Source of the DNA: an uncultured Granulosicoccaceae bacterium
GTDB taxonomy: Bacteria > Pseudomonadota > Gammaproteobacteria > Granulosicoccales > Granulosicoccaceae
DNA: 64,000 bases
Direction: 5' to 3'
NCBI GenBank assembly: GCA_937927895.1
Contig: CALGKA010000012.1
Coordinates: 62,001-126,000 of the forward strand
Translations under genes and position numbers: made by a program
Notes under the pieces: generated by a model
Database searches by the model: none
Seen by the model: the letters and a program-made list of their open reading frames with translations, nothing else
Told to the model about the DNA's origin: nothing
Shown here: one piece after another, positions 4,491-13,335 of the stretch
Position numbering within the stretch: position 1 is the first letter of the stretch
Layout of the letters: each line of letters starts with the position of its first letter

Positions 4491-5267
4491 CTAACTTTCA
4501 GAAATTCTCATACGCAAATAGTCAACCTCTATATCAACCGTTACTGCAATCATAAATTCAAATACTGAAACGGCGGTCGCTTCTGGTAGTTCATAGTGGC
4601 GTGCCAAACTTTTGGATAACTCAATTACTTTTTGTTCGCGGTCACGGCGAACAATTAGCTTTAGCATTTCTTCGCGGTCGCCGCCGGTGGCTATAAATTC
4701 ATCGGTAAGCTCACTAAATTTTGACTCAGCCACCTGTTTACCCAGGTTAACGCGCTCCATAATCCCAAGCAATACGACTACATCTGCGGTTACTGTTTCA
4801 CCATATGTTTTCGAGTCATCAGCATGCTCACAATGGGTTTGGATCCATGAGTTGTAAAACTCAACTATTCGTGGACCAACACCACTTGCCATTACTTTCA
4901 CAGGGCTTTCTGGCGCGGTTCTTTTTAGCACACTTTGTACACCTGAAACATCTGAAAAAGCATCTTGAGTGGTGAACGCATAACGCCCAAGCTCTGCATG
5001 GCATTGCTCAATGCGAGCGAGCTCATATTGCAATAAAGATTGCTCAGACTCTGAGATCACCAAGCCTGGTTGATAGATCGCATCGTTAGAGACAAATCGA
5101 ATGCGTTTTTTCAAGCCTATGATAATTTCATTTGCAAGAATATCTAAGCCAGGTCGAATAGTGCCCTGCAGATCTAGATCGGGGTGTGTGGTCATAGACT
5201 GGTATCTTTTGTTGATCTCATGAATCGAATTTCTATCAGAAACGCCGCGTAGGCCTGAATCACTCAT
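4491..5267 (-). CDS. Chorismate mutase, eukaryotic type (AroQ beta class)
   Basis: Probable monofunctional chorismate mutase converting chorismate to prephenate for Phe and Tyr synthesis. The 258-residue length and motif order match the all-helical enzyme of yeast (Aro7) and plants rather than the roughly 90-residue bacterial AroQ. Visible landmarks are IRPGLD (Arg38), a helix with GLKKRIRFVSN, an ELGRYAF block (Gly-Arg-Tyr), HADDSKTYGET, then ERVNLGKQVAESKF with Arg172 and Lys183 spaced 11 apart as in yeast Arg157 and Lys168, a DREEMLKLI segment, Glu211, and TVDIEVDYLR with Thr243 and Glu247 spaced as yeast Thr242 and Glu246. The yeast Asn194 position seems to be Arg here. The assignment rests on my alignment from memory. 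The gene converges on the hydrolase and is divergent from the sugar-acid operon; the function in this cell is inferred. Confidence 0.72.
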   Translation of the reverse strand: MSDSGLRGVSDRNSIHEINKRYQSMTTHPDLDLQGTIRPGLDILANEIIIGLKKRIRFVSNDAIYQPGLVISESEQSLLQYELARIEQCHAELGRYAFTTQDAFSDVSGVQSVLKRTAPESPVKVMASGVGPRIVEFYNSWIQTHCEHADDSKTYGETVTADVVVLLGIMERVNLGKQVAESKFSELTDEFIATGGDREEMLKLIVRRDREQKVIELSKSLARHYELPEATAVSVFEFMIAVTVDIEVDYLRMRISES

Positions 5268-5344
5268 GAAAAATTAGCTTATAAGTGTATTATTAACTAA
5301 AGAAAATCGCATCTAGAATTTAGCTATTTGTGGCTAAATATTGT

Positions 5345-5350
5345 CGGAGG
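5345..5350 (+). promoter_or_regulatory. Ribosome binding site fixing the GTG start at 5357
   Basis: CGGAGG lies 6 bp before a GTG at 5357, a near-ideal Shine-Dalgarno spacing. An in-frame ATG at 5330 would put this site inside the coding region and add nine residues with no family resemblance. The GTG is therefore preferred. Confidence 0.8.
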
Positions 5351-5356
5351 GAAGTC

Positions 5357-7120
5357 GTGAGCAAAGAACCAACAAAGTTTAAGCGCCGAAGCGAAGCGTG
5401 GTTCAACAACCCAGCCAACCCGTCCATGACTGCATTGTACGTTGAGCGTTATCTGAACTACGGATTAACACGCTCCGAGCTACAGTCTGGCAAACCCATT
5501 ATTGGCATTGCACAAACGGGCAGTGATCTCTCACCCTGTAATCGAGCCCACATTGAAAATGCTAAAAGAGTACGCGAAGGCATACGTGAAGCAGGCGGCA
5601 TCGCAATAGAGTTTCCGGTTCATCCCATCCAGGAAACCAGTCGCCGGCCAACAGCAGCCATTGATCGCAACCTTGCCTACCTTGGGCTTGTCGAGGTGCT
5701 ACATGGCTACCCAATCGATGGCGTAGTGTTAACCACCGGTTGCGACAAAACTACACCAGCCTGCTTAATGGCGGCAGCCACTGCCAACCTACCGGCTATT
5801 GTTCTATCAGGTGGACCAATGCTTGATGGTTGGTACGATGGCAAACTCTCAGGCTCTGGCACCATTGTGTGGGCATCAAGGCTTAAACTTGCCGCCGGTG
5901 AAATTGACTACGACGAGTTCATGGAAATAACAGCATCATCTGCTACTTCACCAGGGCACTGCAATACAATGGGCACTGCATCAACCATGAATGCACTGGC
6001 AGAAGGCCTTGGAATGTCATTACCAAACTGTGCGGCCATTCCAGCACCTTACCGGGAGCGTTTGCAAATAGCGTATGAAACCGGCAAACGGATTGTTGCA
6101 ATGGTAGATGAAGATCTAACACCTGCGAAAGTTATGACGCGTAAGGCATTTGAAAACACCATCGCTCTAAACTCCGCCATTGGCGGCTCAACCAACGCAC
6201 CCATACATGTAAACGCCATAGCCAAGTGCATGGATATAAATTTAAGCATACAAGATTGGGAAACACACGGCTTTGACACACCACTACTCGTAAACATGCA
6301 ACCGGCTGGTGAATATCTGGGCGAGTCATTCCATAGAGCCGGAGGTGTGCAAGCAGTACTGGGTGAGTTACACAGAAACGGACAACTACACGGTGACGCG
6401 TACACGGTTAATGGCAACACCATGGCAGACAATTGCGCCAACACTCAAAGTTCCGATGAAAGAGTTATCAAATCATTTAGCAATCCTATTCGTAAGCAAG
6501 CGGGCTTTTTGGTAATGTCAGGCAACTTGTTTGATTCTGCGGTACTCAAAACCAGTGTTATCAGTGATGAATTTAGAAGTCGCTTTTTAACCAACGGTGT
6601 TTTTGAAGGGCGTGCGATAGTATTTGAAGGCTCAGAGGACTACCACGATAGACTCAATGATCCATCACTCAATATTGATGAGCACTGCGTACTGGTCATG
6701 CGGGGTACAGGCCCCATCGGCTGGCCAGGCTCCGCTGAGGTGGTTAATATGCAGCCACCAGATGCACTCATTAAACGTGGAATTACAGAACTACCGTGCA
6801 TTGGCGATGGCAGGCAATCAGGCACCAGCGCCAGTCCATCGATCCTAAATGCATCCCCCGAGTCTGTAGCAGGCGGTGGTTTATCGCTACTTGAAACTAA
6901 CGATATTATTCGAATTGATATGAATGAACGCTCGGTCAATATGCTGGTCGATGACGCAATACTTGCAAAACGCATAGCCAATACTGAACACCCAGCCAGT
7001 CAGACACCGTGGCAAACAATATACAGACAAACCGTTGGGCAATTAGCGCATGGCGCCTGCATAGAACTCTCTGAAGCGTATCATCGAGTAACTGAAGTAC
7101 TCCCACGTCATAATCACTAG
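5357..7120 (+). CDS. IlvD/Edd family sugar-acid (aldonate) dehydratase
   Basis: An Fe-S dehydratase of the IlvD/Edd family that removes water from a sugar acid to give a 2-keto-3-deoxy acid. The sequence resembles the D-xylonate/L-arabinonate dehydratase branch rather than IlvD itself: RRSEAWFNNPANPSMTALY near the start, QTGSDLSPCNR, TTGCDKTTPACLMAA with cluster cysteines, and SPGHCNTMGTASTMNALAE. Later come NSAIGGSTNAPIH and the C-terminal GRQSGTSASPSILNASPE. The length of 587 residues fits that branch. It opens a compact operon with a DenD-like dehydrogenase 9 bp downstream and a UxaA-like enzyme, which supports a sugar-acid pathway. The exact substrate cannot be read from sequence. Confidence 0.9.
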   Translation: MSKEPTKFKRRSEAWFNNPANPSMTALYVERYLNYGLTRSELQSGKPIIGIAQTGSDLSPCNRAHIENAKRVREGIREAGGIAIEFPVHPIQETSRRPTAAIDRNLAYLGLVEVLHGYPIDGVVLTTGCDKTTPACLMAAATANLPAIVLSGGPMLDGWYDGKLSGSGTIVWASRLKLAAGEIDYDEFMEITASSATSPGHCNTMGTASTMNALAEGLGMSLPNCAAIPAPYRERLQIAYETGKRIVAMVDEDLTPAKVMTRKAFENTIALNSAIGGSTNAPIHVNAIAKCMDINLSIQDWETHGFDTPLLVNMQPAGEYLGESFHRAGGVQAVLGELHRNGQLHGDAYTVNGNTMADNCANTQSSDERVIKSFSNPIRKQAGFLVMSGNLFDSAVLKTSVISDEFRSRFLTNGVFEGRAIVFEGSEDYHDRLNDPSLNIDEHCVLVMRGTGPIGWPGSAEVVNMQPPDALIKRGITELPCIGDGRQSGTSASPSILNASPESVAGGGLSLLETNDIIRIDMNERSVNMLVDDAILAKRIANTEHPASQTPWQTIYRQTVGQLAHGACIELSEAYHRVTEVLPRHNH

Positions 7121-7129
7121 GCTTAAACA

Positions 7130-8125
7130 ATGAAACTATTGATCACAGGTGGCGCAGGCTTTCTGGGCCAACGACTCGCGATGGAGTGCTTGCAGCGCAA
7201 TTGCTTAAATCTTGCACGGCAACCAACGCCCGCCATTGAAAAGATAGTGCTGGCAGATGTTGCAGAACCACCCTTTTGGCATGCGGGTTTACGAGAAAAC
7301 AATAAAATTGAAACCCGCTTTGGAGATATCGCAGATCAGAACTGGGTAAACTCACTGTTTGATCAAAACTATGATGCGGTGTTTCATCTTGCCTCAATAG
7401 TCAGCGGGCATGGCGAACAAGATTTTGACCTGGCCTTAAAAGTCAATCTAGATGGCACACGCTATCTGTTTGAATGTATAAGAGCACAAAGCAATCTACC
7501 CACAGTTGTATTCACCAGTTCAGTTGCAGCATTCGGCGGTGACAACATGCCAGATGTTGTAGCAGACAATTCAAAGCTTACACCCATGACCACTTACGGG
7601 GTGACCAAGGCGATAGGTGAATTACTTATTAATGACTACAGTCGTAAAGGATTCTTTGATGGCCGCAGCGCACGCTTGCCGACTGTAATCGTAAGACCCG
7701 GTAAACCAAACCTTGCTGCATCAAGTTTTGTTAGTGGTTTATTTCGTGAACCATTAGCAGGAGTTGACTGCGTGATACCAGTGGACCCAAAACAAATGAT
7801 GCCAGTGCTTGGCTACAGAAGTATTGTTAACGGCCTCATACACTTAGCTGAATTGCCAGCGGCCGAGTTAGGCATAGATCGCGCAATCGGCCTACCGGCA
7901 ATTAATGCCAGCATACAGCAAATGATGGATGCATTAAAAAGCGTTGCTGGCAATCGGCATTTAGGGCAGCACATACTTAAACATGACCCTGTCATTGACA
8001 GCATTGTTAAAGGCTGGCCAACACAAGTTAACAATGAGCGCGCACTATCTCTTAGCCTACCATTAGACAATTCATTAGAAGAAATTGTTCAACACTATAT
8101 TGATGATTACATTAACTGCGTATAA
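7130..8125 (+). CDS. NAD-dependent epimerase/dehydratase, D-erythronate dehydrogenase (DenD)-like
   Basis: A 331-residue extended short-chain dehydrogenase. The Rossmann motif GGAGFLG is at residues 7-13, a catalytic Ser lies in FTSSVAAFGG near 131, and the YxxxK pair is Tyr156/Lys160 in TTYGVTKAIGE. The N-terminal block MKLLITGGAGFLGQRLA, with a following segment that leads into VLADVAEPP, resembles D-erythronate dehydrogenases (DenD), which oxidise a tetronate at C2. It is the second gene of the sugar-acid operon, 9 bp after the dehydratase and 17 bp before uxaA, so a role on a sugar acid or lactone is likely. Other epimerase-family reactions remain possible. Confidence 0.8.
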   Translation: MKLLITGGAGFLGQRLAMECLQRNCLNLARQPTPAIEKIVLADVAEPPFWHAGLRENNKIETRFGDIADQNWVNSLFDQNYDAVFHLASIVSGHGEQDFDLALKVNLDGTRYLFECIRAQSNLPTVVFTSSVAAFGGDNMPDVVADNSKLTPMTTYGVTKAIGELLINDYSRKGFFDGRSARLPTVIVRPGKPNLAASSFVSGLFREPLAGVDCVIPVDPKQMMPVLGYRSIVNGLIHLAELPAAELGIDRAIGLPAINASIQQMMDALKSVAGNRHLGQHILKHDPVIDSIVKGWPTQVNNERALSLSLPLDNSLEEIVQHYIDDYINCV

Positions 8126-8142
8126 AAATTCAAGGAAAAAAC

Positions 8143-9702
8143 ATGAGCAATAGCGACACACCCATAAGCTGGGTCAAGCCCGGCTCATCTGAGTTTGATC
8201 TGGTAACACTGAGCGATGAAGACAACGTAGCCGTTGCCATACGCAACCTTGCAAAAGCGGAATCATTGCAAGAAGTCACCACTCTAGATGAAATACCCAA
8301 AGGTCATAAAGTCGCATTACAGAACATCACTTCAGGCTCGGCCATTATAAAGTACGCTCAAATTATAGGTTATGCGAAATCAGACATTAGCGCCGGACAA
8401 CACATTCACACACACAATATAGAATTCAGAAACACAGAACATCAGTATGTATTCAGTATTGATAACGCCGAACCTGAATTGCTTGCATTAAGTGACCAGG
8501 CAACCTTTAAGGGCTATAAGCGTGACAACGGCAAAGTCGGCACACGAAACTATATAGCAGTGTTAGCAAGCGTTAACTGCTCAGCCACTGCGGTGCAACA
8601 TATTGCCAATGCTTTTGATCAGAACATACTCGCAGATTATCCGAACATTGATGGCGTTGTAGGTTTTTCACACAGCACTGGCTGTGGCCTTGCTGACAGC
8701 GGCGACGGTTACGACAACCTGCAACGCGTTATTTGGGGTTTTGCACAACACCCAAATGTGGCCGGTGTTTTAATTGTTGGCCTTGGCTGTGAAGTCAATC
8801 AAATCAGCTCACTGATCAGTCAATCCGAACTTACACGTGGTCCTCTACTACGCACTATGAATATTCAATCGGTCGGTGGGCATACGAAAACAGTGGCGGC
8901 CGGGGTCGCACGAATAAAAGAAATGCTGCCGGAGGTTAATAACGTACAACGTGAAACGTGCCCGGCATCTGCCTTAATGCTGGCACTGCAATGCGGCGGC
9001 TCTGATGCGTGGTCTGGGATCACAGCCAATCCGGCACTTGGCTATGCATCAGATCTATTAGTTAAAAATGGCGGCACCGCGGTACTCGCAGAGACCCCCG
9101 AAGTATATGGTGCTGAACATCTACTCACACGTCGCGCTACCAATGAGGCCATAGGAAAGAAACTAATCGACCGCATAGAGTGGTGGGAAAACTATGTTGA
9201 GATTAACGGTGGCTCTATGGATAACAATCCTTCACCCGGTAACAAGCTAGGCGGCTTAACCACTATTTTAGAAAAATCACTAGGCGCTGTTGCCAAGGGT
9301 GGCACCACCAGACTCAATGGTGTTTTTAGATACGCTGAACCAGTTGATCGCAATGGGTTTGTGTTTATGGATACTCCGGGCTATGACCCAGCATCCATCA
9401 CAGGTGAAGTGGCCGGGGGATGCAACTTGGTCGCATTCACTACAGGGCGGGGATCCACTTATGGTTGCAAACCATCTCCCAGTATAAAAATTGCCACTAA
9501 CACAGAAATGTATGAACGTATGAAGGACGATATGGATATCAATGCAGGAACAATTGTCACGCAAGGTGCGAGCATCGCACAAGTTGGGCAAGAGATATTC
9601 GAACTACTTTTAGAAATCGCCTCTGGAAAGCAATCTTTAAGTGAACAACACGGACTGGGCGATCACGAGTTTATTCCATGGCAAATAGGGGCCACCATGT
9701 GA
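8143..9702 (+). CDS. UxaA family dehydratase (altronate/galactarate dehydratase-like)
   Basis: A 519-residue member of the altronate/galactarate dehydratase family, which dehydrates a hexaric or aldonic acid with help from a divalent metal. Residues about 20-105 form the N-terminal SAF-like domain. The main domain begins near GYKRDNGKVGTRNYIAVL and contains HSTGCGLADSGDGY, LIVGLGCEVNQ, MLALQCGGSDAWSGITANP, ETPEVYGAEHLL and TTGRGSTYGCKPSPSIKIATN, all typical. A good AAGGAA site precedes the ATG. The stop overlaps the start of the DUF3303 gene (GTGA), so the two are translationally coupled. The partner enzymes suggest a substrate related to that of the IlvD/Edd protein, but which acid is unknown. 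Confidence 0.9.
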   Translation: MSNSDTPISWVKPGSSEFDLVTLSDEDNVAVAIRNLAKAESLQEVTTLDEIPKGHKVALQNITSGSAIIKYAQIIGYAKSDISAGQHIHTHNIEFRNTEHQYVFSIDNAEPELLALSDQATFKGYKRDNGKVGTRNYIAVLASVNCSATAVQHIANAFDQNILADYPNIDGVVGFSHSTGCGLADSGDGYDNLQRVIWGFAQHPNVAGVLIVGLGCEVNQISSLISQSELTRGPLLRTMNIQSVGGHTKTVAAGVARIKEMLPEVNNVQRETCPASALMLALQCGGSDAWSGITANPALGYASDLLVKNGGTAVLAETPEVYGAEHLLTRRATNEAIGKKLIDRIEWWENYVEINGGSMDNNPSPGNKLGGLTTILEKSLGAVAKGGTTRLNGVFRYAEPVDRNGFVFMDTPGYDPASITGEVAGGCNLVAFTTGRGSTYGCKPSPSIKIATNTEMYERMKDDMDINAGTIVTQGASIAQVGQEIFELLLEIASGKQSLSEQHGLGDHEFIPWQIGATM

Positions 9703-9962
9703 ATACTGATACTTTAGAAAAGTATATGGTGGTAGAAAAATTCCATACTGGTGCACAGGAAAAAATATACCAACGATTCAAACAGCATGGTCGCAAGCTA
9801 CCCGAAGGTTTGTACTATATTGATTCCTGGCTCAGTGCCGATGCCAACATTTGCTTTCAGTTAATGGCAACGGAAAACAAGGCGCTGTTTGACGAGTGGA
9901 TTACTCACTGGAGCGATCTAACCGATTTTGATATATTCCCAATAGATAAAAAACCAGATTAA
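9699..9962 (+). CDS. DUF3303 family small protein
   Basis: An 87-residue protein with the DUF3303 pattern: KYMVVEKFHTGAQEKIYQRF, LPEGLYYIDSWL, CFQLMATENKALFDEWITHW and TDFDIFPI. The family is uncharacterised and looks like a small ferredoxin-like or dimeric alpha/beta barrel fold. I choose GTG at 9699 because its GTGA overlaps the uxaA stop and an AGGGG sequence lies about 9 bp upstream. An ATG at 9678 would add seven residues that do not match the family. Its place inside the sugar-acid operon suggests an accessory role, for example mutarotase- or lactone-related, but this is a guess. Confidence 0.75.
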   Translation: MNTDTLEKYMVVEKFHTGAQEKIYQRFKQHGRKLPEGLYYIDSWLSADANICFQLMATENKALFDEWITHWSDLTDFDIFPIDKKPD

Positions 9963-10558: not shown

Positions 10559-11107
10559 TCAGTCTTCACAAATAGTTAAGTCCAAAGGATCTACACCCAC
10601 TAAACGTGGTATCTCGGTCGGAGCAACGTATTCGTTTCTTGGTTGTGTGTAAGTCAGACCATCTGCACTGAAGTGCTTTCGGGACTGATCAATCTCCCAG
10701 AACATTAAGGAGTTCTGATCCTCACTTAGCGATAGCACCTTATCTAATACGCTTGTATAACCATCCAGCTGCAAATCCTGGATCATATCAAAGTCGTTTC
10801 CATTCGGCACTACTTTGGATGATTTAATATTTTCATTCGAAAGATCTGAAAGGATATAGCAGTTTTCACCACTGCCAGCTGCATCTGCCTGATAATCATA
10901 AAAGAGCATAGCGCCAGTATCGTCTATGTAGAGATAGCCTATATCATCATCAGCTTCATCACCCCACAGCCCTTTGATTTGTTCCAATTCAGCCGGCGTT
11001 CCAGACCCTAAAAAAGAATATGGCGGATCACTGGAATCGGAGCCACAACCCACAAGCACCAAAGCAGCTGCCAATGCTACACAAGCTAAGTCATTACTCT
11101 TGAACAT
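10559..11107 (-). CDS. Putative lipoprotein, unknown function
   Basis: A 182-residue protein with a lipoprotein signal: MFKSNDLACVALAAALVLVGC, lipobox LVGC with the modified cysteine at 21, followed by GSDSSD, a flexible acidic linker. The Asp residues are not at +2, so outer-membrane sorting is expected. The mature part is acidic and beta-rich (GYLYIDDTGAMLFYDYQ). I recognise no family. It converges on the DUF924 gene and is divergent from the Nudix gene, so it is probably a single-gene unit. Confidence 0.7.
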   Translation of the reverse strand: MFKSNDLACVALAAALVLVGCGSDSSDPPYSFLGSGTPAELEQIKGLWGDEADDDIGYLYIDDTGAMLFYDYQADAAGSGENCYILSDLSNENIKSSKVVPNGNDFDMIQDLQLDGYTSVLDKVLSLSEDQNSLMFWEIDQSRKHFSADGLTYTQPRNEYVAPTEIPRLVGVDPLDLTICED

Positions 11108-11916: not shown

Positions 11917-13335
11917 TTATGCAGATGATTCTTCAGCAGCAGGCGGCGCACTTAGCTCACGCTTCCAGCCACACATTCTCTCAACCGCAGAAATCATCGT
12001 TCCTGCAATGTCTTTACCGGTCGCGTCTTCTATACCCTGAAGACCGGGTGATGAATTAATCTCCAACAACAACGGGCCATTTTTAGAGCGTATTAAATCA
12101 ACGCCCGCCACATGCAACCCCATGGCTTTGGCCGCACGCAATGCTAGCTTTCGCTCTCCCGGGGTCGGCTTAACACTTGTGGCTGTCGCACCACGGTGCA
12201 TGTTGGCACGAAATTCACCCGGTGCTGCTTCACGTTGCATACAAGCGACGACTTTGCCATCTACAACAAACAAGCGCAGATCTTTACCTTCAGCTTCAGC
12301 TATAAACTGTTGCACTAAAAGGTTCGCATTAAGTGACTTAAAAGCGTTGATTACACTTTCGGCAGCCTTCGACGTTTCAGCCAACACCACGCCACGGCCC
12401 TGAGTACCTTCAAGCAATTTTACAATCAATGGCGCACCGCCAACCATCTCGATTAGTTCGTCGGTATCCATAGGCGATGAGGCAAAACCACTGATCGGTA
12501 TTTCTAAGCCCTCTTTCAACAATAGCTGCAGTGAATACAACTTGTCACGCGAACGGCTAACTGCTTGCGAAACATTCAGCGCGGGAATGCCAATACTTTC
12601 AAAATGTCGTGTTAACGCACAGCCATAAAAAGTGACTGATGGCTTAATCCGGGGTATGACTGCATCAAGATTATTCAACATAATGCCACCACGGGTATGA
12701 ACCTCTGGCGCTTCTGCATCAAGCTTCATATAGCACTGACGAATATCAAAAAATCGAATATCATGACCACGCTCCCTACCCGCCTCTAGAATTCTTTGAT
12801 TACTGTAAAGCTTCGGATTACTGGCCAATAAACCTATACGCAAGCCATCGTTGTTCTTTTTAACTTTAGAATAGATCTCTGAGATTTCTTCATCGCTTCG
12901 ATCCCCCAAAAGGAAACTTGCCGCCGGATCAACCAAGAGGCGATTGCCCATGGCCTCACGACCCAATAACATTCGATACCCCATGCTGTCTCGGTTGGCG
13001 AGAGTCAATTCAATATCCCATTGTTTATCACCAATACCAAAGCAGGTTTTAATTACGTAGCGTTTTTCAGAAAAACCACCGCTGTTTTTAATGGTACGTC
13101 GATCAAGCACTTCCGCTTCACAACGCAATACTGTGGCTCGTTCATTTTGTAATGGATGAACCTCAAAAGATACCCAACGGGCATTGTCTCGAGTAAAAGG
13201 TCGAATATTTAACGCATGCAACGATGAAGTACGAGCACCTGAGTCTACTCGTGCCTTAACGGCGTGTATTCCTAGATCCGGAAATGCGCACCATTCTTCA
13301 GACCCTGCGATCACTCGCGAAGCATTGTCTTTCAT
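11917..13335 (-). CDS. RimB-RimK fusion: retropepsin-like protease plus ATP-grasp glutamate ligase
   Basis: A 472-residue two-domain protein. Residues about 8-155 match the ATP-dependent zinc protease/RimB family (retropepsin-like), with the aspartate motif ARVDSGARTSSLHA (Asp31-Ser-Gly-Ala) and LLGREAMGNRLLVDP. Residues about 165-460 form a RimK-type ATP-grasp ligase: LRIGLLASNPKLYSN, GTQGRGVVL as glycine loop, QQFIAEAEGKDLRLFVVDG, and LLLEINSSPGLQGIE with the metal-binding Glu and Asn. RimK adds glutamates to the C-terminus of ribosomal protein S6. RimB is a protease encoded beside it in pseudomonads. The fusion joins modification and removal in one chain. The ATP-grasp partner and target are inferred. 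Confidence 0.88.
   Translation of the reverse strand: MKDNASRVIAGSEEWCAFPDLGIHAVKARVDSGARTSSLHALNIRPFTRDNARWVSFEVHPLQNERATVLRCEAEVLDRRTIKNSGGFSEKRYVIKTCFGIGDKQWDIELTLANRDSMGYRMLLGREAMGNRLLVDPAASFLLGDRSDEEISEIYSKVKKNNDGLRIGLLASNPKLYSNQRILEAGRERGHDIRFFDIRQCYMKLDAEAPEVHTRGGIMLNNLDAVIPRIKPSVTFYGCALTRHFESIGIPALNVSQAVSRSRDKLYSLQLLLKEGLEIPISGFASSPMDTDELIEMVGGAPLIVKLLEGTQGRGVVLAETSKAAESVINAFKSLNANLLVQQFIAEAEGKDLRLFVVDGKVVACMQREAAPGEFRANMHRGATATSVKPTPGERKLALRAAKAMGLHVAGVDLIRSKNGPLLLEINSSPGLQGIEDATGKDIAGTMISAVERMCGWKRELSAPPAAEESSA

Follow-up and report, generated by a model that had tools for sequence, protein, structure and literature searches.

Among the chorismate mutases of the AroQ type, the closest described relatives of the gene treated here are the AroQbeta enzymes, as represented by yeast and Candida Aro7, Arabidopsis AtCM1 and the enzymes of maize and Physcomitrella. 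For the yeast enzyme, we take the catalytic set to be Arg16, Arg157, Lys168, Glu198, Thr242 and Glu246, while the effector site is presumably formed by Arg75, Arg76, Gly141, Ser142 and Thr145. AroQbeta is termed the eukaryotic form in an excerpt of one publication (PMC7762937), and the yeast enzyme is cited as the AroQbeta example in an excerpt of another (PMC10520331). As for regulation, PMC11171525 reports that AtCM1 requires Gly213 for its allosteric control and Gly149 for effector choice, and loop 11-12 of the yeast enzyme appears as an allosteric element in PMC12459221. Among the open-licence PMC papers listed in literature searches, no title or abstract beginning described a bacterial AroQbeta.

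The gene under study lies in a window of 64,000 nucleotides, i.e. the whole stretch of DNA analysed, from an uncultured bacterium of the Granulosicoccaceae. The preliminary description had reported a 258-residue open reading frame, which proved real: the frame re-derived from the window sequence runs from 5267 to 4491 on the minus strand, in agreement with the coordinates given before, and comprises 258 codons plus a stop. Residues 1-24 of this full frame (4491..5267, minus strand) lack conservation among relatives. Because the relatives align from Met25 and residues 1-39 of the structural model have pLDDT values below 50, translation likely starts at Met25 (window position 5195), so that the probable true extent of the gene, from Met25 to the stop, is 4491..5195 (minus strand) with a predicted product of about 234 residues. 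Against three near relatives, pS values of 0.68-0.82 versus pN values of 0.09-0.15 indicate purifying selection. Alignment and model place the first core helix region at residues 37-63 (5079..5159, minus strand), with an IRPGLDILANE block that includes Arg38 (yeast Arg16) and part of which, GLDILANE, served as the pattern in searching for relatives.

The protein had been described as a eukaryotic-type AroQbeta chorismate mutase in a gammaproteobacterium, and architecture, fold and catalytic set all bear this out, on the grounds of homology to TIGR01802 and Aro7, Foldseek matches and aligned residues. TIGR01802, the profile named for this type, matches residues 36-251 significantly (E 1.4e-20), although the score of 74.1 bits lies far under the curated cut-off of 170.9 bits; against the same cut-off, the relatives L063 and L062 score 90.2 and 65.7 bits. 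The sole Pfam match is PF01817 with 31.9 bits, above its 27-bit cut-off. Candida and yeast Aro7 are found by phmmer with E 5.4e-10 and E 5.3e-9, and a profile of 12 relatives improves these matches to 1.2e-17 and about 1.3e-14, respectively. An AlphaFold2 monomer model built from 26 sequences (mean pLDDT 85.0, pTM 0.81) predicts the full-length two-domain AroQbeta fold. In a Foldseek comparison of this model with the PDB, all 14 matches with E <=0.001 are AroQbeta chains, namely from Candida, yeast, maize, Arabidopsis and Physcomitrella (TM 0.66-0.78), followed by six chains of secreted Ustilago Cmu1 (E 0.013-0.036, TM 0.42-0.50), while E. coli chorismate mutase (E 3.5) and the lyase PchB (E 4.2) match over about 100 columns each. 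By length, model and Foldseek result, the protein does not fit the AroQalpha class with its single, often fused domain of about 90 residues. Exported AroQgamma enzymes are not indicated either (NF006741 24 bits versus a cut-off of 158; TIGR01806 absent among the four families listed), and the protein has no AroH-type match to PF07736. A higher PF01817 score was considered as a sign of nearness to AroQalpha and rejected, as yeast and Candida Aro7 score 47.9 and 49.9 bits, five bacterial proteins 28.6-35.3 bits, and the protein of genome G061 gives no match. Judged from sequence and model, the protein is thus best described as a bacterial variant of AroQbeta which stands outside TIGR01802 by its cut-off.

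All residues named in the preliminary description are present, as are the GRY, DD-xx-TYGET and DRE blocks. Arg38, Arg172/Lys183, Glu211 and Thr243/Glu247 align with yeast Arg16, Arg157/Lys168, Glu198 and Thr242/Glu246, with yeast and Candida being the two of the six eukaryotic chains that reach the columns of Thr243 and Glu247. The catalytic half spans residues 165-258 (4494..4775, minus strand; alignment and model) and further holds Arg207, Arg210 and a short turn where yeast has loop 11-12. Invariant in 24/24 family members are Arg38, Arg172, Lys183, Arg210, Thr243 and Glu247, while residue 211 is Glu in 22, Met in one and Gln in one. The suspected replacement of yeast Asn194 by Arg was confirmed, the aligned residue being Arg207 (Arg in 21 family members, Lys in three); in the Latescibacterota protein and the three from Sumerlaeota, N, H, D and D occur at 207 and E, Q, E and Q at 247. 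The same position is Phe or Tyr in the four plant chains of the alignment and hence does not define the AroQbeta subclass. An excerpt of PMC7762937 ties Asp or Asn at the place of Asn194/Asp48 to efficiency without a partner; given this link, Arg or Lys at 207 could point to a weak or partner-dependent enzyme. At Arg210, all six eukaryotic chains have Val, and Arg is common to AroQalpha-type domains in the alignment. As read from these residues, the active site is a hybrid, with an AroQbeta body and an AroQalpha-like Arg210.

The effector-site region (residues 94-160; 4788..4988, minus strand; alignment) extends from Gly94-Arg95 to Gly156, Glu157 and Thr160. Gly94, Arg95 and Gly156 occur without exception in the 28 bacterial proteins, i.e. 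24 from the family and four from Latescibacterota and Sumerlaeota, and they align with AtCM1 Gly149, yeast Arg76 and AtCM1 Gly213/yeast Gly141, respectively, where the AtCM1 numbers assume that chain 4ppu covers residues 63-340. Thr160 (yeast Thr145) is likewise kept, Gly94 is as in AtCM1 (yeast Arg75), and yeast Ser142 is changed to Glu157. Yeast loop 11-12 is missing: the alignment has a gap of about 14 columns there, and the model shows a turn of four residues (225-228). With part of the effector site kept and this loop absent, control by aromatic amino acids such as Trp and Tyr may exist.

Compared with the described AroQbeta enzymes, the window protein shares the predicted full-length two-domain helical fold, the catalytic Arg/Arg/Lys/Glu/Thr/Glu set and the effector-site Arg95 and Gly156, but differs in having Arg207, Arg210 and Glu157 at the places of Asn194, Val and Ser142, respectively, and in the absence of loop 11-12, the TIGR01802 score well below cut-off and the bacterial host. 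With the AroQalpha domain of E. coli-type PheA, it has in common the presumed reaction, an Arg-Glu pair aligned with EcCM Arg51-Glu52 and a short connection ahead of the last helix; in contrast to that domain of about 90 residues, it consists of about 234 residues in two halves and is not fused to a prephenate dehydratase.

Within the family of the window genome, the beta-type gene was found in 24 of the 48 genomes searched, distributed over the window's genus g1 (10/14), g2 (3/3), g4 (10/27) and g5 (1/1), with g3 (0/1) and g6 (0/2) negative. When a divergent copy was sought by profile search with E up to 10 in 11 family genomes without the gene, one match with E 0.22 was returned. The other 47 genomes of the search that covered the family gave one positive, G061, with a different and more eukaryote-like protein. 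GTDB contigs yielded 26 loci of relatives, 24 of them gammaproteobacterial (21 titled Granulosicoccaceae or Granulosicoccus) and one each assigned by record title to Latescibacterota and Sumerlaeota; by these named relatives, the window genome itself is Granulosicoccaceae-like. A class-level draw of 369 genomes gave three matches (G000, which is the window genome, G016 and G061), and TIGR01802 found one genome, again that of the window, in a phylum-level draw of 398, with 0/14 control genomes. In 1/64 Latescibacterota and 3/40 Sumerlaeota genomes, the gene is also present. Since the Sumerlaeota loci L063 and L074 have, by eye, a common upstream gene, it looks native there. The Latescibacterota locus contains a long RNA methyltransferase frame (L062 1-2181, minus strand) that by eye resembles fused RlmKL, a fusion usual in Gammaproteobacteria; misbinning of this contig is possible. 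The G061 protein (G061:C6:72211-72792, plus strand; L026/L067) comes from another gammaproteobacterial family and, like the window protein, is an AroQbeta of a gammaproteobacterium. It differs by a score above the TIGR01802 cut-off (177.5 bits), by grouping with the eukaryotic chains on a long branch, by Ala at yeast Arg16 and by a genome with an intact alpha-type PheA, and it may be related to the mutases but serve another role.

Divergent from the mutase gene in the window, at 5330-9962, lie genes for an IlvD/Edd-type dehydratase, an NAD-dependent epimerase, an altronate/galactarate-type dehydratase (SAF-UxaA) and a DUF3303 protein. Further along on the minus strand, the frame at 10559-11107 codes for 182 residues that lack a Pfam match and, by eye, begin like a lipoprotein, and that at 11917-13335 for a single protein of 472 residues in which a zinc-protease-like domain (PF05618) is combined with a RimK ATP-grasp ligase. 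The window's neighbouring dehydratase, of sugar-acid type, adjoins the mutase gene in 9/29 loci examined. With this neighbour kept and the gene present in half of the family genomes, contamination by eukaryotic DNA was rejected. A mobile origin was rejected as well: 72,556 plasmid records gave no match, and 83 pattern matches in viral contigs included none confirmed as a relative.

The genome of the window (4.55 Mb) has a single PF01817 match, the window gene itself; at 92.6% completeness, a second mutase could be unseen. Prephenate dehydratase (PheA/PDT) loci were found in 39/48 family genomes and in G061, with 32 of the 39 located by PF00800 in a search covering 36/48 genomes and seven (G036, G037, G038, G040, G041, G042 and G045) by their PF01817 match. 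The nine genomes without such a locus are G001, G006, G020, G021, G039, G043, G044, G046 and G047, where G043, G044, G046 and G047, matched by neither gene, were left out of the dehydratase search; with these four omitted and seven loci located through PF01817, sampling was partly biased. Standalone dehydratases make up 13/39 (12/14 g1 genomes and G017; loci L093-L105) and share 29-34% identity with the P-protein of G018, whereas the other 26 are of the P-protein type. That of the window genome (L104, at G000:C12:176351-176878, outside the window, by PF00800 and NF008866) is a standalone protein of 285 residues with 400.1 bits against NF008866 (cut-off 359). An alpha site was counted as intact when all of R11, R28, K39, R51 and E52, which we take to be the EcCM catalytic residue numbers, were present as placed by motif. 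Among family P-proteins without the beta gene, the site is intact in 13/14, the exception being G023 (R11C, K39R). Of the 12 P-protein genomes with the beta gene, by contrast, one is intact (G026), ten are broken or lost (G014, G016, G019, G022, G025, G027, G029, G032, G035 and G038) and one is unreadable (G024), i.e. 1/11 readable sites is intact. Decay is partial in G035, where R11 and K39 are lost and R51 and E52 kept, and R28, retained in every readable domain, does not discriminate. Against TIGR01807 (cut-off 69.55 bits), the G016 domain scores 32.5 bits versus 98.8 bits for that of G018. Eight P-protein loci (L077, L078, L079, L080, L086, L089, L091 and L113) show a vestigial mutase-like stretch at the N-terminus that has lost several catalytic residues and kept R28.

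The contrast of 13/14 to 1/11 gives a Fisher p of 3.5e-5, or 5.2e-6 with the standalone genomes added, before any correction for kinship. As finding a locus by its PF01817 match, the way taken for seven, biases towards intact domains, the count was repeated on PF00800-located loci, resulting in 7/8 intact without and 1/10 with the beta gene (p 0.003, likewise not kinship-corrected). On the dehydratase tree, beta presence changes six times and alpha breakage five times; a kinship-corrected test is not significant because well-supported branches hold only three independent pairs. The sister genome of G023, where the alpha site is broken and no beta gene was found, is G026 with both beta gene and alpha site. 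Groups that have support in the beta tree are seen again in the dehydratase tree, in line with a gene inherited within the family and reciprocally lost. An AroH substitute was sought via PF07736, with matches in 0/57 genomes searched. Three genomes with a standalone dehydratase (G002, G003 and G005) yet gave neither beta gene nor PF01817 match. In G002, the stretch ends about 230 bases past the neighbouring dehydratase, where the beta gene should begin, and this end is taken as the contig end. G003 (92% complete) and G005 (91%), of the same genus, carry a standalone dehydratase with no PF01817, PF07736 or beta-type mutase found. In G001, neither standalone dehydratase nor mutase was found, and G001, G003 and G005 have no match above 37% identity to the mutase-adjacent dehydratase. 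G006 has the beta gene and no prephenate dehydratase match. As G020, at 98% completeness, also lacks prephenate dehydratase and PF01817 matches, absence in such drafts is weak evidence. Outside the family, the beta gene is the only PF01817 match in Latescibacterota G413, and it stands alongside a second PF01817 frame of 399 residues (55.8 bits) in Sumerlaeota G414.

Taken together, we consider it probable, at roughly 80%, that the beta-type enzyme is a bacterial AroQbeta chorismate mutase which replaced the AroQalpha domain of PheA at the mutase step in the Granulosicoccaceae. It would convert chorismate into prephenate for phenylalanine and tyrosine synthesis by means of Arg38, Arg172, Lys183, Arg210, Glu211, Thr243 and Glu247. 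Ancestrally, the beta gene and the AroQalpha domain would have coexisted, as they still do in G026, before lineages dropped one or the other; in g1 and G017, the P-protein would have been replaced by the standalone prephenate dehydratase, requiring a separate mutase. We infer mutase function from the conserved catalytic residues and from the fact that genomes carrying the beta gene tend to have lost the alpha site; the order of events and a cytosolic site of action are likewise inferred. As far as can be told from sequence, these bacteria most likely rely on the window protein as their functional chorismate mutase, in place of the usual domain. Counted against this takeover are the non-significant association once independent events are counted, the biased sampling, the lack of a mutase match in G002, G003 and G005 despite their standalone dehydratase, the beta gene next to an alpha-type frame in G414, the intact PheA of G061, Arg or Lys at the place of Asn194/Asp48 in all 24 family members, the loss of Glu211 in 2/24 and the incompleteness of the window genome.

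Alpha decay and the beta gene might also be unrelated, in which case the pattern would stem from common ancestry within a small number of clades, from gaps in metagenome assemblies and from how the loci had been located. The few independent pairs, the many draft genomes and the seven loci located via PF01817 itself speak for this, yet it is unlikely: decay takes different forms in different clades (g2; G016/G029; G025/G032; G027/G038/G035), all of which have the beta gene, a different dehydratase in g1 and g5 also goes with it, clades without it keep the alpha site although they are spread over the same tree, and the contrast persists once those seven loci are set aside. It is very unlikely, in turn, that the protein resembles Aro7 but now catalyses something else, e.g. 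a pericyclic or lyase reaction of a related kind, with chorismate mutase activity coming from an unseen source. Arg or Lys for Asn194/Asp48, a Glu211 that is not universal, the alpha-type frame present in the same genome in G026, G414 and G061, and a neighbouring dehydratase of the sugar-acid type, with no aromatic-pathway gene adjoining in the window, would suit such a role. It is opposed by the coupling of alpha-site loss to beta presence, by the invariance of Arg38, Arg172, Lys183, Thr243 and Glu247, and by the window genome having this protein as the sole mutase homologue found.

On the question of origin, transfer from, or shared ancestry with, a eukaryotic enzyme had been proposed. A tree of 35 rows was calculated from the 28 bacterial proteins, six eukaryotic chains (yeast, Candida and four plant chains, four of the six without their C-terminal part) and the G061 protein. 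In this tree, the proteins of Granulosicoccaceae, Sumerlaeota and Latescibacterota form one side with 100/100 support, joined by a very long branch to the six eukaryotic chains plus G061, and are not nested among those six. Shared ancestry is supported, while transfer from a eukaryote is not, considering the separate side and an identity of 22-25% to the eukaryotic chains; a recent transfer from a sampled eukaryotic group is accordingly not supported at the sequence level. Acquisition of the gene from a fungus, plant or alga, with the enzyme working like Aro7, regulation included, would agree with the eukaryotic nature of the best solved-structure matches and with the correspondence of Gly94, Arg95 and Gly156 to plant and yeast effector-site residues, but is quite unlikely in view of the separate bacterial clade, whose record titles span three phyla, the low identity, the missing loop 11-12 and an Arg210 that recurs in AroQalpha-type domains, where the six eukaryotic chains have Val. 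When rooted with AroQalpha, a tree of the C-terminal half places the eukaryotes inside the bacterial set, but monophyly of the bacterial proteins is not rejected (p-AU 0.21, 0.24); this tree does not settle the root because it has too few columns and overlong branches. A minor, speculative chance is left for the bacterial family being an early AroQbeta branch, one that split off at the eukaryotic enzymes' root or ahead of it, with the doubled body already combined with an AroQalpha-like active site. This is suggested by an AroQbeta body and effector residues joined to the invariant Arg210, by residues 207 (Asp, Asn or His) and 247 (Gln or Glu) of the Sumerlaeota and Latescibacterota proteins, and by the lack of loop 11-12.

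The new element here is the loss of the alpha site in family genomes which carry a beta-type gene. A bacterial AroQbeta is apparently the sole chorismate mutase in many genomes, and among their close relatives the alpha domain is intact, decayed or gone. The family may thus offer a natural experiment on enzyme displacement as well as on the rise of allosteric chorismate mutases. If the bacterial proteins indeed branched early, the fungal and plant enzymes would descend from a bacterial invention, and the allosteric loop 11-12 would have been added later.
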